Shown: positions 21,250 to 64,000 of the stretch, piece by piece | Layout of the letters: every line of letters begins with the position of its first letter | Numbering within the stretch: position 1 is the first letter of the stretch | Assembly: GCA_019638575.1 (NCBI GenBank) | Contig: JAHBTN010000005.1 | Span: 1-64,000 of the forward strand | DNA length: 64,000 nucleotides | Origin: Ferruginibacter sp. | GTDB lineage: Bacteria > Bacteroidota > Bacteroidia > Chitinophagales > Chitinophagaceae | Reading direction: 5' to 3' | Program-made: the position numbers and the translations under genes | Notes under the pieces: generated by a model | Seen by the model: only the letters and a program-made list of their open reading frames with translations | What the model was told of the DNA's origin: nothing | The model's database searches: none

Positions 21250-21319
21250 GTAGTAGGTAGTAAGTAGCAAGTAGTAAGTAGTAAGTAGCAAGTAGTAGGT
21301 AGCATGTAGTAAGTAGCAA
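21250..21319. repeat. Heptamer array GTAG(T/C)AN x10
   Basis: Ten unbroken 7-bp units in the order GTAGTAG, GTAGTAA, GTAGCAA, GTAGTAA, GTAGTAA, GTAGCAA, GTAGTAG, GTAGCAT, GTAGTAA, GTAGCAA. The strand has only two kinds of C-containing word and is otherwise C-free. It begins 8 nt after the aminotransferase stop. Confidence 0.9.
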
Positions 21320-21335
21320 GATGAAGACTGTAGTG

Positions 21336-21429
21336 AAAAGTCAAAAATCAAAAATCAAAAGTCAAAATTTACTATTCACCATTCAGCATTCAAAATTCAT
21401 AATTCATAATTCAAAATTCATAATTCAAA
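21336..21429. repeat. Heptamer arrays AAAA(A/G)TC x5 and ATTCANN x8 ending at a start codon
   Basis: Five AAAANTC-type heptamers (21336-21370) and, after 3 nt, eight units of ATTCACC, ATTCAGC, ATTCAAA and ATTCATA (21374-21429). The block is almost G-free on the plus strand and ends one base before the ATG of the transporter gene. Confidence 0.9.
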
Positions 21430-21430
21430 A

Positions 21431-22894
21431 ATGCCAGATACCAACACTTCTCTTTACAATGAAGATCTTGCACCAATTGAACAAAGCAAGCGCTCCTGGG
21501 GAACATGGAACTATGCAGCATTATGGATAAGCATGAGCCTTTGTATTCCTACTTACATGCTGGCTAGTTCGTTGATAGAGGGTGGTATGAACTGGTGGCA
21601 ATCTATCTTAACCATATTCATTGGCAACACTGTTGTTTTAATTCCGATGATATTGAACGGGCATGCCGGTGCAAAATATGGTATCCCTTTTCCTGTTTTT
21701 GCAAGGGCAAGTTTTGGCACCCGTGGCGCAAATATTCCTGCCATTTTACGGGCTATTGTAGCATGCGGATGGTTTGGTATTCAAACATGGATTGGCGGTT
21801 TCTCTATTTATCAAATGATGAAACTTTGGTTTCCTTCACTTGCAACAATGCCACAAATTTTTCCGGCATCGTTTGGTTTGGAAACCGGGCCTGCCATTTG
21901 TTTTTTTCTTTTTTGGCTGCTCAATATGTGGGTGGTTTATCTTGGTGTAGAAAGCATCAGGAAATTACTTGTATTTAAAGCTTTCTTTTTACCACTTGCA
22001 GCTTTGGCGTTGTTAATATGGGCAATTAATGCAGGCCACGGCCTGGGACCAATTTTATCGCAACCATCAAAATTACAAGGGCCGGCATTTTGGTCTTTCT
22101 TTTTTCCTGCACTTACAGGCATGGTTGGTTTTTGGGCAACACTTTCTTTAAACATTCCAGATTTTACACGGTATGCTAAAAGCCAAAAAGCACAAATAAA
22201 CGGGCAAATAATCGGACTTCCGCCATCCATGACATTGTTTGCTTTTATTGGTGTAGTGGTAACATCTGCCACATTTATTATTTATGGCGAAACCATTTGG
22301 GACCCGGTTGTACTTGCCGGTAAATTTCAAAATAAATTATTGGTAAGTATTGCTATGATTGCTGTTGCTATATCTACGTTGGCAACCAATATTGCAGCCA
22401 ATATTGTTAGTCCTGCAAATGATTTTGCCAATCTATCTCCAAAAAAAATAAATTTCAGAACCGGAGGATTAATAACCGGTATATTAGGCATTTTAATTTT
22501 TCCATGGAAACTGATAGCTGATCCTAACGGTTATATTTTTACATGGCTCATTGCTTATTCAAGTTTATTGGGGCCTATTGGCGGCATTATGATTGCCGAT
22601 TATTATTTTATAAGAAAACAATTGCTGCATGTTGATGATTTATATAAACACAACGGGCAGTATGCATTTGTAAACGGATTTAATTCATCAGCCATCATTG
22701 CATTGCTGGCAGGTGTTATACCAAATATCCCGGGGTTTTTATTACAGGTTAAACTGGTTTCACCTACAGCTTTTCCATCATGGATATCGGGGCTATATAA
22801 TTATGCATGGTTTGTTGGTTTTATTGTTAGTGGCATTGTATATATATGGCTGATGAGGAATTATAAAAGAGAAATTGTAAATTTAGAGAAATAG
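21431..22894 (+). CDS. NCS1-family nucleobase:cation symporter
   Basis: 487 aa, about 12 hydrophobic segments. The N-terminal region (Trp-Gly-Thr-Trp-Asn-Tyr, then ASLIEGGMNWWQ and GKxGIPFPVFARASFG-like motif) is characteristic of the NCS1 family (uracil, allantoin, cytosine, hydantoin transporters). Given the downstream PreTA and dihydropyrimidinase genes, uracil, thymine or dihydropyrimidine uptake is the likely role at the inner membrane. The start follows a heptamer array directly, with no Shine-Dalgarno site. Confidence 0.92.
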   Translation: MPDTNTSLYNEDLAPIEQSKRSWGTWNYAALWISMSLCIPTYMLASSLIEGGMNWWQSILTIFIGNTVVLIPMILNGHAGAKYGIPFPVFARASFGTRGANIPAILRAIVACGWFGIQTWIGGFSIYQMMKLWFPSLATMPQIFPASFGLETGPAICFFLFWLLNMWVVYLGVESIRKLLVFKAFFLPLAALALLIWAINAGHGLGPILSQPSKLQGPAFWSFFFPALTGMVGFWATLSLNIPDFTRYAKSQKAQINGQIIGLPPSMTLFAFIGVVVTSATFIIYGETIWDPVVLAGKFQNKLLVSIAMIAVAISTLATNIAANIVSPANDFANLSPKKINFRTGGLITGILGILIFPWKLIADPNGYIFTWLIAYSSLLGPIGGIMIADYYFIRKQLLHVDDLYKHNGQYAFVNGFNSSAIIALLAGVIPNIPGFLLQVKLVSPTAFPSWISGLYNYAWFVGFIVSGIVYIWLMRNYKREIVNLEK

Positions 22895-22906
22895 AAATTG
22901 AAGACC

Positions 22907-24289
22907 ATGTCTATATTGATTAAGAATGCAAATATTGTTGGCGCTGCAGAAAATTATACAGGCGATATTTTTATACAAGGCGAAAGCATTGCTGTAATTG
23001 GTAAAAACCTGGATATACAGGCCGATAAAGTAATTGATGCAACAGGCCTGCTTGCATTCCCCGGTTGTATTGATCCGCATGTGCATCTCGAGATGCCTTT
23101 TATGGGTACATTCAGCAGCGATAATTATGAAACGGGCACCCGTGCTGCACTGTATGGCGGTACTACAACTGTTATTGATTTTATTTTACAATCGCAGGGC
23201 CATTCTTTATACGATGCTTATAAAGCATGGAGTGGCAGGGCCAATGGAAATGCTGTAGGCGATTATAGTTTTCACATGGCTGTTACCGATTTTAATGAAA
23301 ACACCTGCAAAGAAATTGTTGATCTTATTGAAAAAGAAGGCATCACTTCGTTTAAAATGTTTATGGCTTACAAAGGCGCATTGATGATTGATGATAAGCA
23401 AATGGTGGGCCTGATGAACGAAGTAAAAAAACGTGGCGGCATGGTTACAGTACATGCCACCAATGGTGATATGATTGATTTCCTGGTTGCAAAAAATTTA
23501 AGCGAAGGAAATACAGCTCCTTTGTATCATTATTTATCTCAACCCGAAATTACAGAGGCCGAGGCATCAGAAAGGTTTGCATCAATTGCAGGTTACACCG
23601 GATGCCCCGGTTATATTGTACACATGACCTGCGAAGGCGCTTTACATGCAGTGCGTGAAAACAACAGGCTAAATCAAAAAGTTTTTGCAGAAACCTGTAT
23701 TCAGTATTTGTTGTTAGATGCTTCGCTTTACGAAAAAGATTTTGATGGCGCCAAATGGGTGATGAGTCCACCATTGCGGGAGAAGAAAGACCAGGAAGCT
23801 TTGTGGGCAGGCATTAATCAGGGATTAGTGCAAGTAGTTGCTACCGATCATTGCCCTTTTAAATGGGAACAAAAACTTTTGGGTAAAGATAATTTTTCAA
23901 AAATACCCAACGGCCATCCTGCCATTGAGCATAGGGTAGAACTGTTATACAGCGAAGGAGTAAGAAAAGGAAGAATTACGATGAATAAATTTGTTGAAGT
24001 ACTTTCTACAAATCCGGCAAAAATATTCGGCATGTTTCCACAAAAAGGTTGTATTGCCCCAGGCAGCGATGCAGATATTGTGTTGTTTGATCCTAATAAG
24101 GAACATACCATCAGTGCAGCTACGCATCACATGAATACTGATTACTCTGCTTACGAAGGCTGGCAACTGACAGGTAAAACAAAAACGGTTTTATTAAGAG
24201 GCAAGGTTGTAATTGAAGATGGAAACTGTTTAGCAGAGAAAGGAAATGGGAAGTTTATTAAAAGAAGTAAGGTTTCACAATTAATTTAG
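22907..24289 (+). CDS. hydA: Dihydropyrimidinase (hydantoinase)
   Basis: 460 aa from ATG 22907; an upstream TTG at 22898 is unlikely. Amidohydrolase with a binuclear metal centre: H58 and H60 in Asp-Pro-His-Val-His-Leu, carboxylated lysine K150 in Phe-Lys-Met-Phe-Met-Ala-Tyr-Lys, further His ligands in VHATNG and MTCEGA regions, and Asp in VATDHCPF. It opens dihydrouracil or dihydrothymine to N-carbamoyl-beta-alanine or N-carbamoyl-beta-aminoisobutyrate. Lies 12 nt after the transporter gene. Confidence 0.95.
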   Translation: MSILIKNANIVGAAENYTGDIFIQGESIAVIGKNLDIQADKVIDATGLLAFPGCIDPHVHLEMPFMGTFSSDNYETGTRAALYGGTTTVIDFILQSQGHSLYDAYKAWSGRANGNAVGDYSFHMAVTDFNENTCKEIVDLIEKEGITSFKMFMAYKGALMIDDKQMVGLMNEVKKRGGMVTVHATNGDMIDFLVAKNLSEGNTAPLYHYLSQPEITEAEASERFASIAGYTGCPGYIVHMTCEGALHAVRENNRLNQKVFAETCIQYLLLDASLYEKDFDGAKWVMSPPLREKKDQEALWAGINQGLVQVVATDHCPFKWEQKLLGKDNFSKIPNGHPAIEHRVELLYSEGVRKGRITMNKFVEVLSTNPAKIFGMFPQKGCIAPGSDADIVLFDPNKEHTISAATHHMNTDYSAYEGWQLTGKTKTVLLRGKVVIEDGNCLAEKGNGKFIKRSKVSQLI

Positions 24290-24295
24290 AATGTA

Positions 24296-24313
24296 GAATT
24301 ATGAATTATGAAT
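24296..24313. repeat. Left inverted repeat of the four-helix-bundle cassette
   Basis: GAATTATGAATTATGAAT is the exact reverse complement of 24787-24804. It is made of the TATGAAT heptamer and includes the ATG (24308) of the four-helix-bundle gene. Confidence 0.85.
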
Positions 24314-24682
24314 GAAGGCAAAGACAATATTATAGTTAAGAAATCATATTCTTTTGCATTGGATATAATAGGCTTGTATAAAACATTGGTAGAAAACAAA
24401 AAAGAATTTGTGCTATCGAAACAAATGTTAAGAAGCGGCACTTCAATAGGCGCTAATATACACGAAGCTGTTGCAAGTGAATCGAAGAAAGACTTTATTC
24501 ATAAGTTAGGCATTGCTGGTAAAGAAGTGCGGGAAACAGGTTACTGGCTTAATCTTTTAAAGGATAGTGATTATATTACTAAAGAAAATTTTATACAATT
24601 GAACAAAGACTGTGAAGAACTTGCTCGGATATTAAACAGTATCATACTTACTACTAAAGAGAGGTATTTTAAAGCTGTATAA
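24308..24682 (+). CDS. Four-helix-bundle protein (23S rRNA intervening-sequence protein family)
   Basis: 124 aa. The family signature is Met-Leu-Arg-Ser-Gly-Thr-Ser-Ile-Gly-Ala-Asn (about 41-51) followed by amphipathic helices and the E..ETxYWLxLL segment. In some bacteria this protein is encoded inside insertions in 23S rRNA genes; related bundles occur with retroelements. Here it stands alone between hydA and the beta-ureidopropionase gene, with no link to pyrimidine chemistry, and is flanked by an 18-bp perfect inverted repeat made of heptamers. The start codon itself is inside the left repeat, so it looks like an inserted cassette. Function unknown. Confidence 0.85.
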   Translation: MNEGKDNIIVKKSYSFALDIIGLYKTLVENKKEFVLSKQMLRSGTSIGANIHEAVASESKKDFIHKLGIAGKEVRETGYWLNLLKDSDYITKENFIQLNKDCEELARILNSIILTTKERYFKAV

Positions 24683-24737
24683 TTAATTCAAAAATCAAAT
24701 CAAAAACAAAAATCAAAGTCAAAAATAAAAAATTATA

Positions 24738-24807
24738 ATTCAACATCCAACATTCAAAATTCAACATTTAACATTCAACATTCATAATTCATAATTCATA
24801 ATTCAAA
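24738..24807. repeat. Heptamer array ATTCANN x10, right boundary of the cassette
   Basis: Ten units (ATTCAAC, ATCCAAC, ATTCAAA, ATTCAAC, ATTTAAC, ATTCAAC, ATTCATA x3, ATTCAAA) end 3 nt before ATG 24811. The preceding 24684-24737 holds looser TCAAAAA words. The stretch is almost G-free on the plus strand. Positions 24787-24804 form the right inverted repeat. Confidence 0.9.
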
Positions 24808-24810
24808 CAA

Positions 24811-25677
24811 ATGCCACGTATCATCAAATCAGGATTAATACAAATGAGCCTGCCAAAAACAGAAGGCGAAGGAACCATACCGGAAATTGTAAATGCTATG
24901 GTGCAGAAACATATTCCGTATATTGAAGAAGCCGGTAAAAAAGGTGTGCAGATACTTTGCCTGCAGGAAATTTTTAATACACCTTATTTCTGCCCGGGAC
25001 AGGATAAAGCCTGGTACGAAAGTGCAGAGTCGGTTCCAGGCCCTACAACAGAGCTGATGGCAACCTATGCAAAAAAATACAACATGGTCATCATTGTTCC
25101 TATTTATGAAAAAGAACAGGCCGGTGTGTTGTATAATACAGCCGCAGTGATTGATGCCGATGGAACTTATCTTGGCAAGTACAGGAAAAATCATATTCCA
25201 CATACAAGCGGTTTCTGGGAAAAATTTTTCTTTAAGCCGGGCAATCTTGGTTACCCGGTTTTTCAAACTAAGTATGCCAAAGTGGGTGTGTACATCTGCT
25301 ACGACCGCCATTTTCCTGATGGTGCAAGATGCCTTGGTTTAAATGGCGCCGAGATTGTTTACAACCCATCGGCAACGGTGGCAGGCTTATCACAATATTT
25401 ATGGAAGTTAGAACAACCTGCACATGCCGCTGCCAACGGGTATTTTATGGGTTGCATCAACAGGGTGGGAGTAGAAAGGCCCTGGAACCTGGGCAAGTTT
25501 TACGGCAGCAGTTATTTTGTTGACCCACGTGGACAAATTTTTGCACAGGCAAGCGAAGACAAAGATGAATTGTTGGTTGCAGAATTTGATTTGGATATGA
25601 TTGAAGAAGTTAGAAGCATCTGGCAATTCTTCAGAGACAGGAGGCCGGAAACCTATGGCAAACTGGTAGAACTTTAA
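24811..25677 (+). CDS. Beta-ureidopropionase / N-carbamoyl amidohydrolase (nitrilase superfamily)
   Basis: 288 aa. The catalytic triad is visible: E53 (Cys-Leu-Gln-Glu-Ile-Phe), K126 (Tyr-Arg-Lys-Asn-His-Ile-Pro) and C163 (Val-Tyr-Ile-Cys-Tyr-Asp-Arg-His-Phe-Pro). The family includes beta-ureidopropionase and N-carbamoylputrescine amidase; the neighbours favour hydrolysis of N-carbamoyl-beta-alanine to beta-alanine, CO2 and NH3. The length is close to the N-carbamoylputrescine amidase type, so the substrate is assigned by context. Followed by a 13-bp hairpin of heptamer words. Confidence 0.9.
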   Translation: MPRIIKSGLIQMSLPKTEGEGTIPEIVNAMVQKHIPYIEEAGKKGVQILCLQEIFNTPYFCPGQDKAWYESAESVPGPTTELMATYAKKYNMVIIVPIYEKEQAGVLYNTAAVIDADGTYLGKYRKNHIPHTSGFWEKFFFKPGNLGYPVFQTKYAKVGVYICYDRHFPDGARCLGLNGAEIVYNPSATVAGLSQYLWKLEQPAHAAANGYFMGCINRVGVERPWNLGKFYGSSYFVDPRGQIFAQASEDKDELLVAEFDLDMIEEVRSIWQFFRDRRPETYGKLVEL

Positions 25678-25681
25678 AGAT

Positions 25682-25742
25682 GAATACTGAATTATGAATG
25701 TAAAAACATTCAACATTCATAATTCAAAATTCCAAATTGAAA
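25682..25742. repeat. Paired heptamer blocks forming a 13-bp hairpin before preT
   Basis: GAATACT, GAATTAT, GAATGTA (25682-25702) are followed after 5 nt by ATTCAAC, ATTCATA, ATTCAAA, ATTCCAA, ATTGAAA (25708-25742). Positions 25689-25701 and 25713-25725 are perfectly complementary over 13 bp with an 11-nt loop. The block ends 3 nt before ATG 25746. No T-run follows, so it is not a terminator. Confidence 0.88.
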
Positions 25743-25745
25743 TAA

Positions 25746-27110: not shown

Positions 27111-27151
27111 GAATGTAATCTGAAAATGAAATTGCAAAACTTGTTGTCGAT

Positions 27152-27493
27152 TTGTGTTTTAAAATACATGTGCAATATGGCCCCGGCCTGTATGAATCTG
27201 TATATGAAGAAATATTTTGTTACGAGTGGCAGAAAAACGGGATTTCATTTGTAAGGCAATATCCAATCCCTTTGGTTCATGAAGAAATAAAAATGGAAGC
27301 AGGGTTCAGGGCAGATGTTCTTATTGAAGACCGTGTTATTGTGGAATTAAAATCAATAGAAATGTTAGCGCCAGTTCATTACAAACAGGTACAAACATAT
27401 TTAAAACTCTCAGGCTGTAAACTTGGGTTATTGATAAATTTTAATGTTGCTTTGATAAAAGACGGTATTCATCGTATAGTAAACAATTTATAA
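27152..27493 (+). CDS. GxxExxY protein (PD-(D/E)XK-like), possibly without a normal start
   Basis: At least 113 aa. The family motif Gly-Leu-Tyr-Glu-Ser-Val-Tyr is at about 12-18, and the segment Ala-Asp-Val-Leu-Ile...Val-Glu-Leu-Lys-Ser resembles the D...ExK core of PD-(D/E)XK nucleases; the activity of this family is not established. The conserved frame continues upstream of TTG 27152 (SENEIAKLVVD) to a TAA at 27116-27118, directly preceded in frame by ATG 27113. So the natural start appears to be ATG followed by a stop, leaving only TTG or a non-canonical codon. It lies between preT and preA within a 12-bp inverted repeat, an apparent inserted passenger. It may be a pseudogene. Confidence 0.75.
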   Translation: MCFKIHVQYGPGLYESVYEEIFCYEWQKNGISFVRQYPIPLVHEEIKMEAGFRADVLIEDRVIVELKSIEMLAPVHYKQVQTYLKLSGCKLGLLINFNVALIKDGIHRIVNNL

Positions 27494-46163: not shown

Positions 46164-47990
46164 CTAACTTTTCATGTTGAGTTTTATCTGCAATTCATCA
46201 AACTGCTTTTCATCAATAGTTGATGGCGCATCAAGCATTACATCCCTGCCCGAATTATTTTTAGGGAAGGCAATAAAATCACGGATGCTTTCGCTGCCGC
46301 CGATGATGGCGCATAGCCTGTCGAATCCAAATGCAAGGCCGCCATGTGGCGGAGCGCCATATTCAAATGCACCAAGCAGGAAACCGAATTTATGTTGCTG
46401 CTCTGTTTCATCCATACCAAGTGCTGCAAACATTTTTTCCTGAAGTTCACGCTGATAAATACGGATGGAGCCACCGCCAACTTCATTGCCATTCAGTACC
46501 AAATCATAAGCATTGGCTTTTATGCCGGCATAAGGATGTTCTAAATATTTTGAAGCATCTTTAATTACAGGGTCATTACTGATCATGATATCAATATGAT
46601 TTGGCTTGGGCGCTGTAAACGGGTGGTGGCGGGCTACCCAGCGGTTTCCTTCTTCATCATATTCAAACAGGGGAAAGTCTATCACCCACAATAATTTAAA
46701 TTCATCAGCTTTGCGTAAACCTAATCGTTCAGCCATTTCCATTCTTAATGCACTGATGGCTTTACGGGTTCTTTCTTCGGCGCCGGCTACAATCAAAACA
46801 AGGTCGCCGGGTTTTGCAGCGGCAGCTCCGGCAATGGCTTTTAATTTATCTTCTGTAAAAAATTTATCTATGCTGCTTTTGTATGTACCATCATTATTGC
46901 ATTTAATAAATGCCAAACCTTTCATACCTATTTGTGGCCGTTTCACCCACTCTGTTAGTTCATCGGTTTGCTTGCGGCTGTAATCGCTGCAGCCGGGTAC
47001 GGCTATGGCAACCACGGTTTCAGCATCATTAAAAACAGCAAATTCACCATTTATTAAAGAAGAAATATCTGTCTTACCAGTAAAACTATGTGCAGGAAAT
47101 TTAAGGTTGCACAGTTGCATGCCGAAACGGATATCGGGTTTGTCGTTGCCATAAGTCCACATGGCATCTTCCCATGTCATGTGTTGTACTGCTTCGGTAT
47201 AATCAACCCCTTTTACATCTTTAAAAATCCTTTTTACTAAACCTTCAAACATGCTGATGATGTCTTCCTGCTCTACAAATGCCATTTCGCAATCTATTTG
47301 TGTAAACTCAGGCTGCCTGTCAGCACGCAGGTCTTCATCTCTAAAACATTTTACTATCTGGTAATAACGATCGTAACCGCTCACCATTAGTAATTGTTTA
47401 AAAGTTTGCGGACTTTGTGGCAAAGCATAAAACTGCCCCGGGTTCATTCTTGAAGGTACCACAAAATCCCTGGCGCCTTCGGGTGTACTTTTAATTAAGA
47501 AAGGAGTTTCAATATCCATGAAATTATTTTCATGCAGATAGTTTCTTGTACTGCGGTTAACAAGGTAACGCAGTTCAAGATTTTTCTTAACGGCATTCCT
47601 GCGCAGGTCTAGGTAACGGTATTTCATGCGCAAGTCATCACCACCATCGGTATCATCCTGTATGGTAAAAGGTGGTAAGGCAGATTTATTAAGGATTGTA
47701 AATTTTGAAATATTAATTTCTATTTCACCGGTTGGAATATTTGCATTTTTATTGCTTCGTTCGTTCACTATTCCTGTTGCCTGTAAAACAAATTCACGAC
47801 CCGGAGGGTTGGCTTCTAACTGTTCATTCAGGTTTTCTGAAAATAACAATTGGGTGATGCCATATCGGTCACGCAAATCAATAAATGTGATGCTGCCAAA
47901 TTTTCTTACGGTTTGCACCCATCCGGCAAGGGTTACTTCTTTGTTCTTATCCGAAAGCCGCAATTCTCCACAGGTATGCGTTCTGTACAT
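46164..47990 (-). CDS. aspS: Aspartyl-tRNA synthetase (bacterial type)
   Basis: 608 aa. The N-terminal OB anticodon-binding domain (1-110, with [22 protein letters not shown]) precedes a class II catalytic core with motif 2 [19 protein letters not shown], the bacterial GAD insertion (about 290-420) and motif 3 [10 protein letters not shown] near the end. It charges tRNA-Asp. The start codon abuts a heptamer array and there is a -7 element 42 nt upstream, so its 5' leader appears to be nearly only repeat. Confidence 0.97.
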
Positions 47991-48025
47991 TATGAGCTAT
48001 GAGTTATAAATTATGAGTTATGAAT
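47991..48025. repeat. Heptamer array x5 directly upstream of aspS
   Basis: On the aspS sense (minus) strand the units are ATTCATA, ACTCATA, ATTTATA, ACTCATA, GCTCATA, ending with zero gap at the ATG. One G occurs in 35 nt. It is inverted relative to the array at 48206-48289. Confidence 0.85.
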
Positions 48026-48031
48026 TGGCGG

Positions 48032-48039
48032 CAAAGATA
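48032..48039 (-). promoter_or_regulatory. -7 element of aspS
   Basis: Minus-strand TATCTTTG fits TAnnTTTG exactly. A start about 7 nt downstream would place the 5' end at the first heptamer of the array at 47991-48025. Confidence 0.5.
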
Positions 48040-48119
48040 ATTCAATTGTGTTATATCTTAGAAATGCGCTTTTATTGGCATTTAATATTGAAATCTTAAT
48101 ATTCAAAAGGCAAAAGACA

Positions 48120-48196
48120 ATAGATTATAGACAATAGATGATAGACAATAGACAATAGATGATAGACAATAGACAATAGATGATAGACGATAGACA
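48120..48196. repeat. Heptamer array ATAGANN x11
   Basis: Eleven unbroken units of ATAGATT, ATAGACA, ATAGATG and ATAGACG, in a near-regular order of two ATAGACA per ATAGATG. Confidence 0.92.
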
Positions 48197-48205
48197 AAAG
48201 TCATC

Positions 48206-48289
48206 ATTCAACATTCATAATTCAAAATTCATAATTCTCAATTAACCATTTACCATTAACCATTAACAATTAACCATTCACCATTCACA
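48206..48289. repeat. Heptamer array ATTNANN x12, G-free
   Basis: Twelve units: ATTCAAC, ATTCATA, ATTCAAA, ATTCATA, ATTCTCA, ATTAACC, ATTTACC, ATTAACC, ATTAACA, ATTAACC, ATTCACC, ATTCACA. Looser words continue into the macroglobulin stop region. The plus strand has no G across the array. Confidence 0.92.
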
Positions 48290-48293
48290 TTTC

Positions 48294-51200
48294 TCATTCC
48301 ACATTCACCCTAATCCCTTCGCTATGGCTGGTAAACTTGGGTGCGTACATGCATTGAATACTGGTAATACCATTACTGAAATTGCCGGCATGTGTTACAA
48401 ACATAGCATATTCAAAAACATAACTGCCACGGTTTAGCCATCCAAAGAAAAAGTTGGTGCTTGCATCTTTGGTGCTTTCGTAATAACCAAGGCCTCCCTG
48501 GTATTTGTATTCGCTTATTACATTAACCGGTTCCATACAGGCTGCCCTCATATCTTTCATGTGTACGTATTCCATATCTCGGTCAACCTTTAATTCGATA
48601 CGCACTTTTACTTTATCGCCAACTTTTAGTTGGGCGCCATCTTCCAGGACAACCAATACAGGGCCTTTGTCAGAATTTTTTTCGATGAAAAGTTTTTTTA
48701 CCAACCTTAATGGTGTTGCAGATGGTGTTATCTTATCAAGGTCTTCAAAATACTGCCAGTACACCGAGCCCCAACTTGTGGATGAACTGTTTTTTTCTTT
48801 TGTTGAATTGCTGATGCTTACGCTAATATTACCCATCTGCGGATTCACTTTTTGGGCATCGATAGTTTTTTTGAAATAACCGGTTCCGGCTTCGGTGGCA
48901 TCATCATTACTTTTAATGATGGTATTGCCCAATTGTATGGTTACTTCTTTTTCTTCGGCCAGCCAATTACTGCCGCCCAGTAAAAGTGCATAACAGGCTT
49001 CGGCAGTGGCCTTGGTTGTTTTCCAGTTTTGAGTTTGCTTTTGCTTAAGCAACCATGTCTTTAAATCATCAATAGTATTTATGTCTTTGTCAATATCTGT
49101 AAAAGCCTCTATCATCATGGCTTGCGATTCAATGGGCGCCTGGTACCAGTAATAACCGCCGGTTGTCCATTCTTTCCAGTACATGCCCATTTCTTCTTTA
49201 TTGATTGCGTTTTCTTTTAAAGATTTAATGATGGCCTTAGGTGTTACCGCATCATTGCTGCGATGCAGCGCCAAAGCAATCATTGCCTGCATGTATTTGC
49301 TGTTGCTTAACCAGTATTTTTTTGCCTGGCCAAAGTAATAATCATAAGCTGTTTTTGATGCGGCCGCAACTTTATACTCGCTAAAGAAACTACGCATGTA
49401 CAAATATTGTATTTGAAAACTGCTTAGGTTATTTTGGTTCAGCTTCACTTTATACCTGATAAGGTTATCGTAATCTTCTTTTATTTTTTTATCAAGATAT
49501 GGGATGGCTTTGTCGATGATGGTTTTTATATCCTGGTAATGATCACCGGTAAGTGCATTTAATTTTCTCAAGTGGCCAATGCCGGTAGCAATGTATTGCG
49601 TCATATACCTGTCGTCGGCACCGCCTTTAAACCAAACAAAACCGCCATTGCTGCTTTGCATTTCTTTCAGTTTGTTGAAAGCGTTCTGCTGCTCCTTGCT
49701 CATACGCAGCATATCAAACAGCAGGGCTATGTTTTTCTTTTGCTGGTTTTCGTTTTGTGCATCAAGCACCCAGGGAGTTTCCTGCAGCAAAACTGATTTC
49801 AGTTCTTCATTTTTTTGCAGGTTGGATAGCAGCGCAGCGGTATCAACATTTTTCCATTTTTCAAACACCGCTTTAATTTTTGGAGATGCCTTTGTGATAT
49901 ACGATGCAAGTGTGTTTGCATAATACCTGTTGAAAGTTTGCTCGGCACATTCGTAAGGATATTCCATCAGGTAGGGCAGGGCCTGCACTGCATACCAGAT
50001 AGGGTTGCTTGTGTATTCAACCGTTACTGCATGATTACTGATGGTTGTGCTGCTGCCGCTGTTTAGCAACTTATCGAACCTGAAAGTTTTTGTAGTTTGG
50101 TTACGCAGGTTAATGGGCAAGCTTTCGGTTACCAGCATACGATTGGTTAAAATGGGTATGGCCATCTCTTCGCCATCGCTATGGTCGCCGGCTTTTGCTA
50201 CAATGCGGTAACTCATGGCCGAGTTGAAATTGAAAGGAATCTCCATAGGAAATTTCACCGCCTGGCTTTGTCCTGCAGCCACCGTAAAATACTGGTTGGG
50301 GAAAACATTTTTAAACCAGCCATCAACCGGTTTGTTGGTGGCAGCATCTAATAACTCCAAAGTGGCTACACCGGTAAGTTCCTTATCGCTTAGGTTTACA
50401 ATTTTTGCGCTAAACTCCATATTATCGCCTTCCCTCATAAAACGTGGAGCGTTGGGCTGCACCATTAAGGGCTTTTGTGTTACCACAGTTTTTTCTGTAT
50501 AGCCGCTTGCCACATCTTTTGTATGGGCAAGCGTCATCAGTTTCCATTTGGTTAAAGCTTCGGGCATGGTGAACGAAAACTCAACATTGCCATCGGCATC
50601 GGTTTTTAATTCGGGGAAGAAGAAAGCGGTTTCGTTGAAGTTTTTACGTATTTGAACATTTGTGTTTCCAGTATTTTTTTCAGCAACTGATGTGCTTTTT
50701 GATTCCATATTGATACCTAAGGAATCAAACATTATTTCTTCATCTTTTTTTACTTTAACACCTGCAACTTTTCCCGACAATGCTTTTCGAACTACCATTT
50801 CATCAGCTGCTCCTTCGCTTGCCATTGGCGATGGCGCTGCTGCCATTGATTCACCTAAGCGGTATCTTGAATAATAATAGTTATCAAATCCCAACAACCT
50901 ATCGTACGATTTATTTTTTTGTGGCAGGTAATCGTAGTCGGTTTTATTATATTCTTCCGAATTGATATCGGTAAAACCATTGGCACTCCAGCTTACAGAA
51001 CCGTATAGCCCCGGCCATATATACGGCCGTTGCCAGCTATGCGGTTTAAACTGGTCGAGGCTTGCATCGTACATTCCAGCCAGTAATTCGGCTGCTACTT
51101 TTTCGCCTTTATTGCCGGTTATTTGCAGCGTCCATTTTTCCTTTGCACCGGGTAATAATTTATCCCTAAAAGTTTTAAAACTGATGTTCAACTCTTTGTT

Positions 51201-62848: not shown

Positions 62849-64000
62849 TTATTTCTCTTTTTCCAAAACCTCAAACTGCCTCGAAACACTGATGCCGTTT
62901 TCATCTACCAATGTGATGATATGCTTGCCGGGCGCAGGATTTAATGCTATTTGGTGAAAATTTTGTGTGGTGCCAATAAATTCATCATCGAGGCTCCAAT
63001 AAATTTTTGCACCTGCCCGGCGATGTGCTGCCGTAAAAATTGTTTTGCCACGTTCGCCATTAATTTCGAGCGGCACATAAATTTTTGCATCGGGCTGCGG
63101 ATAAATAATCTCAATCAGTTTTCCTGTTTCGGCAAATTCGCAACCGGGTTTAAATGGTGGCAACGGTGCATAATCAATATTCCGTTGTTTATAATAATAT
63201 TCCATGGCAGGCGTAAGTACAAACCAACTTTTGTGCTGCATATTTGATGGTGATTCGCATGACTCTGTAACACGGTATTTTCCTGTAGCATCAAGGTGTA
63301 TCATTTTATGATACGGGCATAGCGGAACTTTTAAGCCATTGGGCTGCGAGAATAAAGTATCCACATCTGGACAATCAATATTGGCACGGTAACCACTTTG
63401 CCTGCACACAGGCACAAACGAAAAATTGTATTTGGGTTTTTCAAACCATTTGTTATTAGGCAGCAACCTGAAAATATCAAACAGCACCGGCGCTGCAGCC
63501 TGCACGCCAACCAATCCCGGCCTGCCTTCTCCATCGGTATTGCCCACCCATACCGCCACTACGTTTTTTGGGGTAACACCTACTGCCCATCCATCTCTAA
63601 AACCAAAGCTGGTGCCGGTTTTCCATGCAATTTTTTGTGAAGAAGCAAATTGTTGCCATAGCCCTTCTTCGCCCGGCCGCATCACATCCTGCATAGCCTG
63701 GAAAGAAAAATAAATACTTGTAGCATCAAGTGGAATGTAGTTGGTTGATAGTTGTTGGTTATTGGTTGTTGATGGATGATTGTTGGTTTTGCTGTTACCA
63801 AAAATATAATTGGGTGGATGAAAATCTGCTGCATTTATTTTGCCATGATTTTTTGTTTGATGATTAAGTGTACGTGCCATAGATGCATACACGCCTGCAA
63901 GGTCCCAGGGGGTTACTTCGCAACCGCCCAATATTAAACTGAGGCCGTAAAAATCGGCATTGTTATTTAATGTAGTGATGCCGCACTGTTGCAGGGTTTC
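62849..64000 (-). CDS. pbpC: Penicillin-binding protein 1C, C-terminal part (5' end outside window)
   Basis: The frame is open to the window edge (upstream of Met 63931 it continues), giving 383 residues. The transpeptidase region retains Lys-Thr-Gly-Thr-Ser-Phe-Gly-Phe-Arg-Asp (KTG motif) and WVGNTDGEGRPGLVGVQAAAP; a C-terminal PBP1C-specific beta domain (about 280-383) follows. PbpC is a periplasmic glycan polymerase/crosslinker, usually partnered by bacterial alpha-2-macroglobulin, whose gene is nearby. Between the active-site region and SIYFSFQAM a 16-residue Asn/Thr/Gln/Ser-rich stretch is encoded by a heptamer array (63737-63785). Confidence 0.93.
   Translation of the reverse strand, partial: ETLQQCGITTLNNNADFYGLSLILGGCEVTPWDLAGVYASMARTLNHQTKNHGKINAADFHPPNYIFGNSKTNNHPSTTNNQQLSTNYIPLDATSIYFSFQAMQDVMRPGEEGLWQQFASSQKIAWKTGTSFGFRDGWAVGVTPKNVVAVWVGNTDGEGRPGLVGVQAAAPVLFDIFRLLPNNKWFEKPKYNFSFVPVCRQSGYRANIDCPDVDTLFSQPNGLKVPLCPYHKMIHLDATGKYRVTESCESPSNMQHKSWFVLTPAMEYYYKQRNIDYAPLPPFKPGCEFAETGKLIEIIYPQPDAKIYVPLEINGERGKTIFTAAHRRAGAKIYWSLDDEFIGTTQNFHQIALNPAPGKHIITLVDENGISVSRQFEVLEKEK
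63737..63785. repeat. Heptamer array x7 inside the pbpC coding region
   Basis: Plus-strand units GTAGTTG, GTTGATA, GTTGTTG, GTTATTG, GTTGTTG, ATGGATG, ATTGTTG. The coding (minus) strand is almost G-free, encoding Asn, Thr, Gln and Ser. The frame is intact, although 7-bp units shift the frame unless changed in threes. Confidence 0.85.

Follow-up and report, generated by a model that had tools for sequence, protein, structure and literature searches.

Why should the gaps of one operon in a Ferruginibacter genome be built of words of exactly 7 bp? Three such gaps lie in the window, the 64,000-nt stretch of DNA analysed here, within what the first-pass annotation called a pyrimidine operon. By domain content (aminotransferase III, permease, amidohydrolase, CN-hydrolase and a dihydropyrimidine dehydrogenase-domain (DPD) protein), this operon looks like one for pyrimidine breakdown. 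The arrays are present in all three gaps with a period of 7, and are best read as the arms of mobile elements, which changes the meaning that the earlier annotation gave them.

Heptamer arrays in the operon and across the genome

The best 28-nt stretch of period-7 self-match reaches 25/28 at 21250-21430, 26/28 at 24738-24806 and 23/28 at 25682-25742, whereas none of the other periods between 4 and 12 exceeds 16/28 in these gaps. When the letters of each gap are shuffled 1000 times, its period-7 value is never attained. Arrays and hairpin arms without a gene occur in the window as follows.

21250..21320, + strand: GTAGTAN array (G-type) directly 3′ of the aminotransferase gene (tandem repeat finder)
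21336..21430, + strand: AAAANTC then ATTCANN array (C-type) directly 5′ of the permease gene (tandem repeats)
25688..25701, + strand: 5′ arm of an ORF-less hairpin in the CN-hydrolase/DPD gap (complement of 25713-25726)
25713..25726, + strand: 3′ arm of this hairpin in the CN-hydrolase/DPD gap (pairs with 25688-25701)
47989..48027, − strand: single heptamer array in the aspS leader (period search)
48103..48309, − strand: double array between a 2077-aa ORF and aspS (tandem repeats)
63737..63785, no strand: heptamer array, weak, within an ORF that encodes a PbpC C-terminal domain (tandem repeats)

We then extended the census to 464,000 bases, made up of 20 stretches of 20 kb taken at regular steps over five contigs together with the window. 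At 23/28 matches or better there are 22 period-7 segments, five of them from the window itself, against none for periods 4-6 and 8-11 and one each for periods 3 and 12; one dinucleotide shuffle of the 464,000 bases contained no period-7 segment. The habit is genome-wide, as had been proposed: the spread of segments across the sampled genome rules out a local oddity of the contig, and the period census and gap shuffles rule out a chance origin. Related arrays had also been placed at 47991-48289, where they are present, and at 63737-63785, where the array is weaker (21/28, missed at 23/28) and lies inside an open frame, not a gap. The almost exclusive use of period 7 supports a special origin, and the earlier interpretation holds in part; no enzyme making or maintaining heptamers was identified. 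Constancy of the first four bases in the words is only loosely true by eye.

An IVP gene between inverted arms

The amidohydrolase/CN-hydrolase gap contains an IVP gene with arrays on both sides.

24296..24314, + strand: 5′ arm of the IVP element, word GAATTAT, overlapping the IVP start codon (reverse complement of 24779-24797)
24308..24682, + strand: IVP gene, 124 aa, PF05635 four-helix-bundle protein (Pfam E 1e-31)
24689..24731, + strand: degenerate (C)AAAAATC-type array separating the IVP gene from the 3′ arm (tandem repeat finder)
24738..24806, + strand: 3′ arm array, word ATTCANN, ending 4 nt 5′ of the CN-hydrolase start codon (period 7)

PF05635 is the family of the four-helix protein ("IVP") that 23S rRNA intervening sequences encode, and the window's protein is related to the solved structure 2rld (E 7.9e-35). 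The stretches 24296-24314 and 24779-24797 form a perfect 19-bp inverted heptamer pair that frames the gene, and the minimum-energy and centroid structures both have the 5′ arm base-paired. The fold of the whole 541-nt element is only mildly better than that of its shuffles (z −1.68, 6/100), which counts against a mobile-element reading. No IVP gene occupies this gap in any of 15 relatives, and in eight of them the gap measures 34 nt or less. Both the gene and the inverted partner array at 24296-24314 had been overlooked in the first-pass annotation.

Arms around IVP genes in other genomes

Inverted arrays of 7-mers, sometimes 8-9-mers, often flank IVP genes in relatives, in other phyla and on cyanobacterial plasmids. 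When the arm match within a locus is ranked against the arms of other loci, a rank of 0.05 or less is found at 46 of 74 IVP loci of this genome and its relatives (74 usable from 82 hits), at none of 30 loci of TsaE, the sole single-copy control family, at 29/45 other non-Clostridial and 10/32 Clostridial loci (3 of 80 rows dropped) and at 8/20 loci on cyanobacterial plasmids (8 of 28 records left out). The loci that miss this rank (28/74, 16/45, 22/32 and 12/20, respectively) count against a mobile-element reading. The 74-locus comparison supersedes an early one with 34 loci and longer flanks. Period-7 stretches occur in IVP flanks at 29/74 loci of this genome and relatives, 20/45 other non-Clostridial, 7/39 Clostridial and 13/20 cyanobacterial plasmid loci, and in control flanks at 1/30 TsaE and 0/28 PDDEXK_3 loci. 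Duplex energies of the 150-nt flanks have a high background and separate the sets more poorly than arm match does, with ranks of 0.05 or less at 50/117 non-Clostridial, 11/37 Clostridial and 8/20 cyanobacterial IVP loci, and at 11/28 PDDEXK_3 and 3/30 TsaE controls.

The arm word is element-specific, has 7 (less often 8 or 9) bases and is without or poor in C on the 5′ side. Among 90 arms of the 45 best loci the period is 7 in 53, 8 in 22 and 9 in 7, and the word differs at each IVP locus yet is common to both sides of one locus. This match is accompanied by a G-before-C polarity, with more G than C in the 5′ arm at 43/46 loci, and by an orientation along operons: both neighbours lie on the IVP strand in 119/154 cases, and the IVP gene is antisense to two co-directional neighbours in 8/154. 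The near-identical elements L335 and L355 hold six and five copies of TGTTCCC, respectively. At one cyanobacterial locus (L331) the arrays are direct instead of inverted, which speaks against a mobile element. No rRNA gene lies near the IVP gene in the 20 loci searched for one.

Filled, empty and ORF-less sites

Arms and gene travel together. Element pairs in different contexts share arms in 7% of cases below 30% protein identity and in 77% of 13 pairs above 70%; a within-genome control of arm sharing against IVP likeness gave 120 positive and 68 negative outcomes. Clostridia were left out of the pair comparison; their contexts were wrongly called different because their IVP genes have a common upstream neighbour, which we take to be rlmD from its C-terminal motif. 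On Nostoc plasmids, one junction occurs in three states: empty, filled (arms and IVP gene) and as an ORF-less remnant. These plasmids also show an insertion into a stop/start gap of 0-3 nt; in close relatives, gaps of 0-3 nt contain no arms, gene or hairpin. An ORF-less unit on these plasmids, a 182-nt insert, sits inside an IVP gene. TTCTA or ATG stands on both sides at two Nostoc plasmid sites, and no such repeat flanks the 182-nt insert. The IVP elements show no transposase and no clear target duplication, against what a mobile element might be expected to have. That IVP genes land in ready-made hairpin loops is less likely: across other contexts, the likeness of arms rises with that of the IVP proteins, and the gaps of close relatives have 0-3 nt and no hairpin.

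Arrays without a gene

ORF-less arrays carry the words of their own genome's IVP arms (30.05 versus 18.97 ± 2.85; 0/2000 sets). This comparison covered 22 of the 25 arrays not flanking an IVP gene, leaving out L066:227-266, L077:4904-4948 and window 63737-63785. For 13 of the 22 the best match is in a single element, that of the window, whose arms are also the best match of the array at 21336..21430 (score 55). Array-bearing gaps lie between co-directional genes in 14 of 17 cases. Over 13 ORF-less gaps of the genome, self-complementarity is not above the cross-gap expectation (mean 12.8 own versus 13.8 cross) and reaches a rank of 0.1 or less in one, which weighs against a mobile-element reading.

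Within the window, the ORF-less hairpin at 25688-25726 is strongly folded (z −5.41; 0/200 shuffles equally stable), and its CN-hydrolase/DPD gap measures 71 nt here versus 13 nt in the close relative G014. The array at 21250..21320 is not complementary to the next one (fold z −0.58), and the halves of the double array at 48103..48309 are not complementary to each other (fold z +1.49, worse than most shuffles); that these two gaps fold no better than shuffles is a further point against. The double array is missing from the syntenic G014 gap, and in place of the aspS leader array G014 has a different sequence of similar length. Among 371 ORFs of this genome, 14 have inverted flanks at score 20 versus 10.3 expected, a total not above expectation that also counts against; the top three are one RAYT and two IVPs.

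Proposed mobile arms and rival explanations

We consider it probable that the heptamer arrays belong, as arms, to small mobile elements of one family, which insert into operon gaps. In its full form such an element runs from a 5′ array through one PF05635 (IVP/S23-like) gene to a 3′ array, and the two arrays are reverse complements of each other. The transcript would fold so that the IVP gene lies in the loop of a long stem, and RNase III may cut this stem as it does in 23S rRNA intervening sequences, which would make insertion into an operon gap harmless. A drifting word could keep its period and its match between arms through one-word slippage and copying of arm from arm. The ORF-less arrays would be shortened or worn copies, the element itself is presumed mobile, and the IVP protein might, as a guess, bind the arm as RNA or single-stranded DNA.

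The arrays could instead be plain slippage products in non-coding gaps that IVP genes merely happen to occupy, and a polymerase preference for 7-mers owing to the size of the DNA contact has been proposed (PMC4679880, PMC4692102). Such slippage would suit the ORF-less gaps that are not self-complementary, the arrays that stand single (L065; aspS leader) or once inside an ORF, and the difference of one 7-mer between L335 and L355. It is nevertheless unlikely: a word is common to the two sides of one IVP locus but not to other loci, TsaE and PDDEXK_3 flanks are without period 7 (1/30, 0/28), and the whole unit, arms and gene, is missing from 0-3 nt gaps in close relatives. Hairpins are also the substrate of Y1/RAYT transposases, and REP-like hairpins might be moved in trans by such a host enzyme with the IVP gene as passenger. 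Five PF01797 matches occur in the genome, four above the family cut-off, and a RAYT has the best inverted flanks among the 371 ORFs. RAYT flanks here have other, fixed sequences, however, whereas the IVP arm word is locus-specific, hard for a sequence-reading enzyme, and arm likeness rises with IVP protein likeness; we regard this route as distinctly unlikely.

Even less probable are host regulatory hairpins, with which arrays would link the translation of operon genes or protect the mRNA between them; such a role has been suggested for short tandem repeats (STRR) in cyanobacterial hupS-hupL (PMC2670836). The co-directional setting of 14/17 array-bearing gaps fits this, as do arrays that occupy the space from stop codon to start codon, but orthologous gaps in relatives are short or hold other words or other genes, and this turnover makes a conserved regulatory function doubtful. 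A retro-element is very improbable. PF05635 has been likened to Avd of diversity-generating retroelements (PMC10053308), and an Avd-like IVP protein could act together with a reverse transcriptase, by which the element would be copied back into DNA; in the relative G038, two PF05635 matches lie about 0.6 kb from RVT_1. Yet RVT_1 is absent from this genome and from G017, G014 and G006, each with 10-12 PF05635 matches, and occurs in 9 of 39 relatives, a distribution that makes reverse transcription a weak candidate for the mover.

Relation to known repeats

Arms around an IVP gene recall several known systems. In 23S rRNA intervening sequences (Coxiella, Leptospira; S23p/IVP ORF) a PF05635 ORF likewise lies between complementary arms, which in Coxiella form a 28-bp stem cut by RNase III (PMC4990558). 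The elements here differ in lying in operon gaps of protein-coding genes, with no rRNA in the 20 loci searched for it, in having arms of tandem 7-9-mers with many words, and in having ORF-less forms. Cyanobacterial STRR, too, consist of 7-bp words in tandem, are dispersed over intergenic gaps and form hairpins in some operons (PMC2670836); the STRR accounts consulted tie them to neither an IVP gene nor a mobile unit. The parallel, already drawn in the first-pass annotation, is stronger than supposed, since such arrays flank cyanobacterial genes of the same IVP family. TAACTGA heptamers, 7-bp direct repeats in gaps of Beggiatoaceae, Cyanobacteria and Bacteroidetes, were read as translational regulator sites, with horizontal spread proposed without a mechanism (PMC4679880); they span the same far-apart phyla but use a single word. 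REP/BIME palindromes with RAYT are also dispersed in gaps with a gene between inverted copies, but the gene here is PF05635, not a Y1 (HUH) transposase, and there is no fixed palindrome, the arms being locus-specific tandem words. MITEs share the short ORF-less unit with inverted ends, one of which was found here inserted in a gene, but no parent transposase or clear target duplication accompanies it here. Diversity-generating retroelements include a reverse transcriptase, and this genome has none.

A wider reading is possible, though short of likely: a widespread mobile class without known transposase, comprising one four-helix protein and a pair of self-matching arrays whose word of 7-9 bases is arbitrary, may land at operon stop/start junctions in Bacteroidota, Cyanobacteria, Campylobacterota, Fibrobacterota, Leptospiraceae and Bacillota. 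STRR and the Bacteroidota heptamers would then be its ends and relics, with the 23S rRNA intervening sequences as the branch that resides in rRNA. The function of heptamer arrays in cyanobacteria and other bacteria is reported as unknown (PMC2670836), the function and origin of the IVP protein of 23S intervening sequences as unclear (PMC4990558), and annotations contain many 'four helix bundle' genes without an explanation; in the literature searched we found no description of a link between heptamer arrays and IVP genes. If the arrays are IVP element arms, these three puzzles merge into one, two features of bacterial genomes that have long lacked an explanation would be linked, and pairs of empty and filled sites, as on the Nostoc plasmids, make the merged question testable. 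Heptamer habits common to far-apart phyla would also be explained, and the known mobile elements would gain one that occupies operon gaps and leaves the genes intact. As a thought only, the arms might grow by end extension, with a G-type 3′ end at either side of a break, by analogy with telomere repeats.

A second cargo type is found in the gap between DPD and the next gene.

27128..27490, + strand: PDDEXK_3 / GxxExxY ORF (Pfam E 4e-36)

Its inverted flanks are of the CGCAAAG type.

Heptamer arrays in the window and the genome

The arrays of 7-bp words that the first-pass annotation placed in gaps of one operon, and at two further sites, are present in the window. Across the three operon gaps, period 7 is the sole standout among periods 4-12 and was equalled in 0/1000 shuffles. 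The annotation had allowed that period 7 might not be enriched genome-wide, or that the arrays might be an oddity of this contig; in 464 kb of genome (the window plus 20 stretches chosen at regular steps, from five contigs) we found 22 period-7 segments versus 0 for periods 4-6 and 8-11 at the same threshold, so the enrichment holds. The remaining matches are multiples of 7, plus one each at periods 3, 12, 22, 24 and 27, and at relaxed thresholds 34 segments have period 7 and no other period between 4 and 12 exceeds 5. One array (window 63737-63785) lies within an ORF encoding a PbpC C-terminal domain, and in another stretch (L081, contig C36:1-20000) heptamer arrays fill each of five gaps in a row of ~800-aa FtsX-like permease paralogues.

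An IVP gene enclosed by inverted arrays

One gap of the window's probable pyrimidine breakdown operon contains a 124-aa gene matching PF05635 (E 1e-31), the four-helix-bundle protein of 23S rRNA intervening sequences (hereafter IVP). The features discussed here are:

24290-24810: operon gap with the IVP gene
24296-24314: 19-base arm, GAATTATGAATTATGAATG
24779-24797: part of the array 3′ of the IVP gene, exact reverse complement of 24296-24314
25678-25745: gap with a gene-less small hairpin, words as in the IVP arms (fold z -5.41)
21250-21430: gap with GTAGTAN left array and AAAANTC, ATTCANN right array, unpaired (fold z -0.58)
47985-48310: array with its two halves unpaired (fold z +1.49)

The 19-base stem encloses the IVP gene in both the minimum-energy and centroid folds, and the fold of the whole element is mildly better than that of shuffles (6/100 as good). 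The ORF-less gaps of the Ferruginibacter genome speak against reading every array as a simple hairpin.

Matching arms around IVP genes

The Ferruginibacter genome has six PF05635 matches, one with two in-frame stops, and at least one match occurs in 38 of 39 relatives, whose genomes are drafts. We compared each upstream flank with its reverse-complemented downstream counterpart, ranking the score against the flanks of other loci. Among 74 usable IVP loci (the six own plus relatives' loci, the best-scoring and others in part hand-picked from ranked lists, with kinship only partly handled), 46 had matching arms at rank ≤0.05 and 21 at ≤0.01; the control, a single family of single-copy TsaE genes from the same genomes, gave 0/30 at ≤0.05. 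Duplex energies of the flanks point in the same direction with lower contrast. Arm words are numerous, each common to both sides of its own locus, and in the arms of the 45 best loci the period is 7 in 53/90, 8 in 22/90 and 9 in 7/90.

When the window's IVP protein was run against GTDB contigs, 80 of 567 confirmed loci were retained; rank 0.05 was reached by 29/45 usable loci outside Bacillota and 10/32 within, spread over Bacteroidota, Ignavibacteria, Fibrobacter, Campylobacterota, Leptospiraceae and Clostridia. In Clostridia (L270-L302), IVP genes follow one kind of upstream gene, presumably rlmD-like judging by the motif at its C-terminus, and small ATGAATTG / CAATTCAT hairpins form ladders there. 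A plasmid search matched 28 records, 26 of them cyanobacterial; of 20 cyanobacterial plasmid loci fetched, 8 reached rank 0.05 and 15 rank 0.2, with words including GGGAACA, GGGAGTA, TGTAGGG and the 8-mer-like GGGGAGCA. In one of these (L331) the arrays are direct, not inverted. Of three plasmid IVP genes with cas neighbours (L331, L338, L342), two lie between cas6 and cas4, and the third has cas10 on one side and a cmr3-family gene on the other.

Period-7 stretches occur in IVP flanks at 29/74 own and relatives' loci, 20/45 other non-Clostridial, 7/39 Clostridial and 13/20 cyanobacterial plasmid loci, and in control flanks at 1/30 TsaE and 0/28 PDDEXK_3 loci. Flanks of PDDEXK_3 genes, a second possible cargo, match in 14/28 loci of the relatives, in words unlike those of IVP elements. 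The window has one such ORF (PDDEXK_3/GxxExxY, 27128-27490) in an operon gap, with inverted CGCAAAG-type flanks.

Occupied and empty sites

An inverted-array unit, gene-bearing or gene-less, is inserted in operon gaps. At a junction 3′ of a TraM-domain gene in Nostoc plasmids, L335 and L355 carry an IVP element (spacers of 496 and 489 nt) with 97.7% identity and 6 versus 5 TGTTCCC copies; L352 and L353 have an empty 52-nt spacer, and L354 a 260-nt ORF-less form with the same left end as the element. At site A, 420 nt with an IVP gene in L345 and L360 correspond to a 3-nt stop-start gap in three plasmids. Site B holds 505 nt with an IVP gene in L340, and is unfilled in four plasmids (a TAATG stop-start overlap in two, 2- and 3-nt gaps in the others). 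Both neighbours' reading frames are intact at both sites. In L359, a 182-nt ORF-less unit of the same word class lies inside the IVP gene, its flanks identical to L345 over 40 nt on each side.

The breakdown operon is kept in relatives while its gap contents vary. The amidohydrolase/CN-hydrolase gap held an IVP gene in 0/15 relatives and was ≤34 nt in 8/15; four relatives have one in another gap of this operon, where the window and one relative have a PDDEXK_3 gene. The CN-hydrolase/dihydropyrimidine dehydrogenase gap is 13 nt in G014, the closest relative by these proteins, versus 71 in the window. In L105, the 668-nt permease/amidohydrolase gap has an ORF resembling, by eye, an ORF6N-domain protein, another possible cargo.

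Between IVP pairs in different contexts, closer proteins have closer arms. With the target genome's remaining IVPs as reference, arm likeness favoured this in 120 mutually dependent comparisons and opposed it in 68 (14/19 in favour at protein identity ≥60%). A set of 22 ORF-less arrays from the Ferruginibacter genome matches that genome's own IVP arms better than foreign IVP arms (30.05 versus 18.97 ± 2.85; 0/2000 sets), a match resting mostly on one word class.

Polarity and orientation

The 5′ arm has G > C in 43/46 IVP loci, and in ORF-less co-directional gaps of the window genome G > C holds for the first half in 11/11 and C > G for the second in 8/11. Because the G-before-C rule reads identically on either strand, it characterises the hairpin rather than transcription. 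L356, a further element at the Nostoc junction next to the TraM-domain gene, has reversed polarity, AATTCAAAATTC first and GAATTTTGAATTTT last. IVP genes are oriented along their operon: gene and both neighbours, called mechanically as open frames, are co-stranded in 119/154 cases, with the IVP gene antisense to two co-directional neighbours in 8/154. Array-bearing gaps in the Ferruginibacter genome number 14/167 co-directional, 2/71 divergent and 1/46 convergent.

Possible machinery and comparable known systems

Heptanucleotide STRR arrays were reportedly first described in 1990, and the Nostoc tRNA-Leu intron contains heptamer stems. STRR hairpins lie in some cyanobacterial operons with function given as unknown (PMC2670836), TAACTGA heptamers occur in Beggiatoaceae, Cyanobacteria and Bacteroidetes (PMC4679880), and Xanthomonas and Nostoc have heptamers rich in G (PMC4692102). 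Four-helix genes are also on record: one in Flavobacterium columnare, with guanylate kinase and a nadD-like gene on either side and classed as a phage region (PMC5524665), and two strain-specific ones in Arthrospira (PMC8700078). No link between heptamer arrays and IVP genes was described in the mostly open-access literature searched.

The transcript would form a stem that RNase III would cut, by analogy with the 23S intervening sequence (IVS) of Coxiella (PMC4990558). One-word slippage with arm-to-arm copying could produce both the period and the arm match. The PF05635 family has been likened to Avd (PMC10053308), and reverse transcriptase was absent from the Ferruginibacter genome and three IVP-rich relatives. 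In G038 (contig C24, 2609-4667), an RVT_1 match has two PF05635 matches close by, and the locus may be a diversity-generating retroelement with Avd. Among 371 ORFs of the window genome, the total with inverted flanks is not above expectation; the highest flank score, 52, goes to a RAYT and the next two, 24 and 23, to IVP genes. This top-scoring RAYT (Y1_Tnp) gene, L067:4717-5265, has long inverted flanks, GGGAACACTTG / CCAGT.
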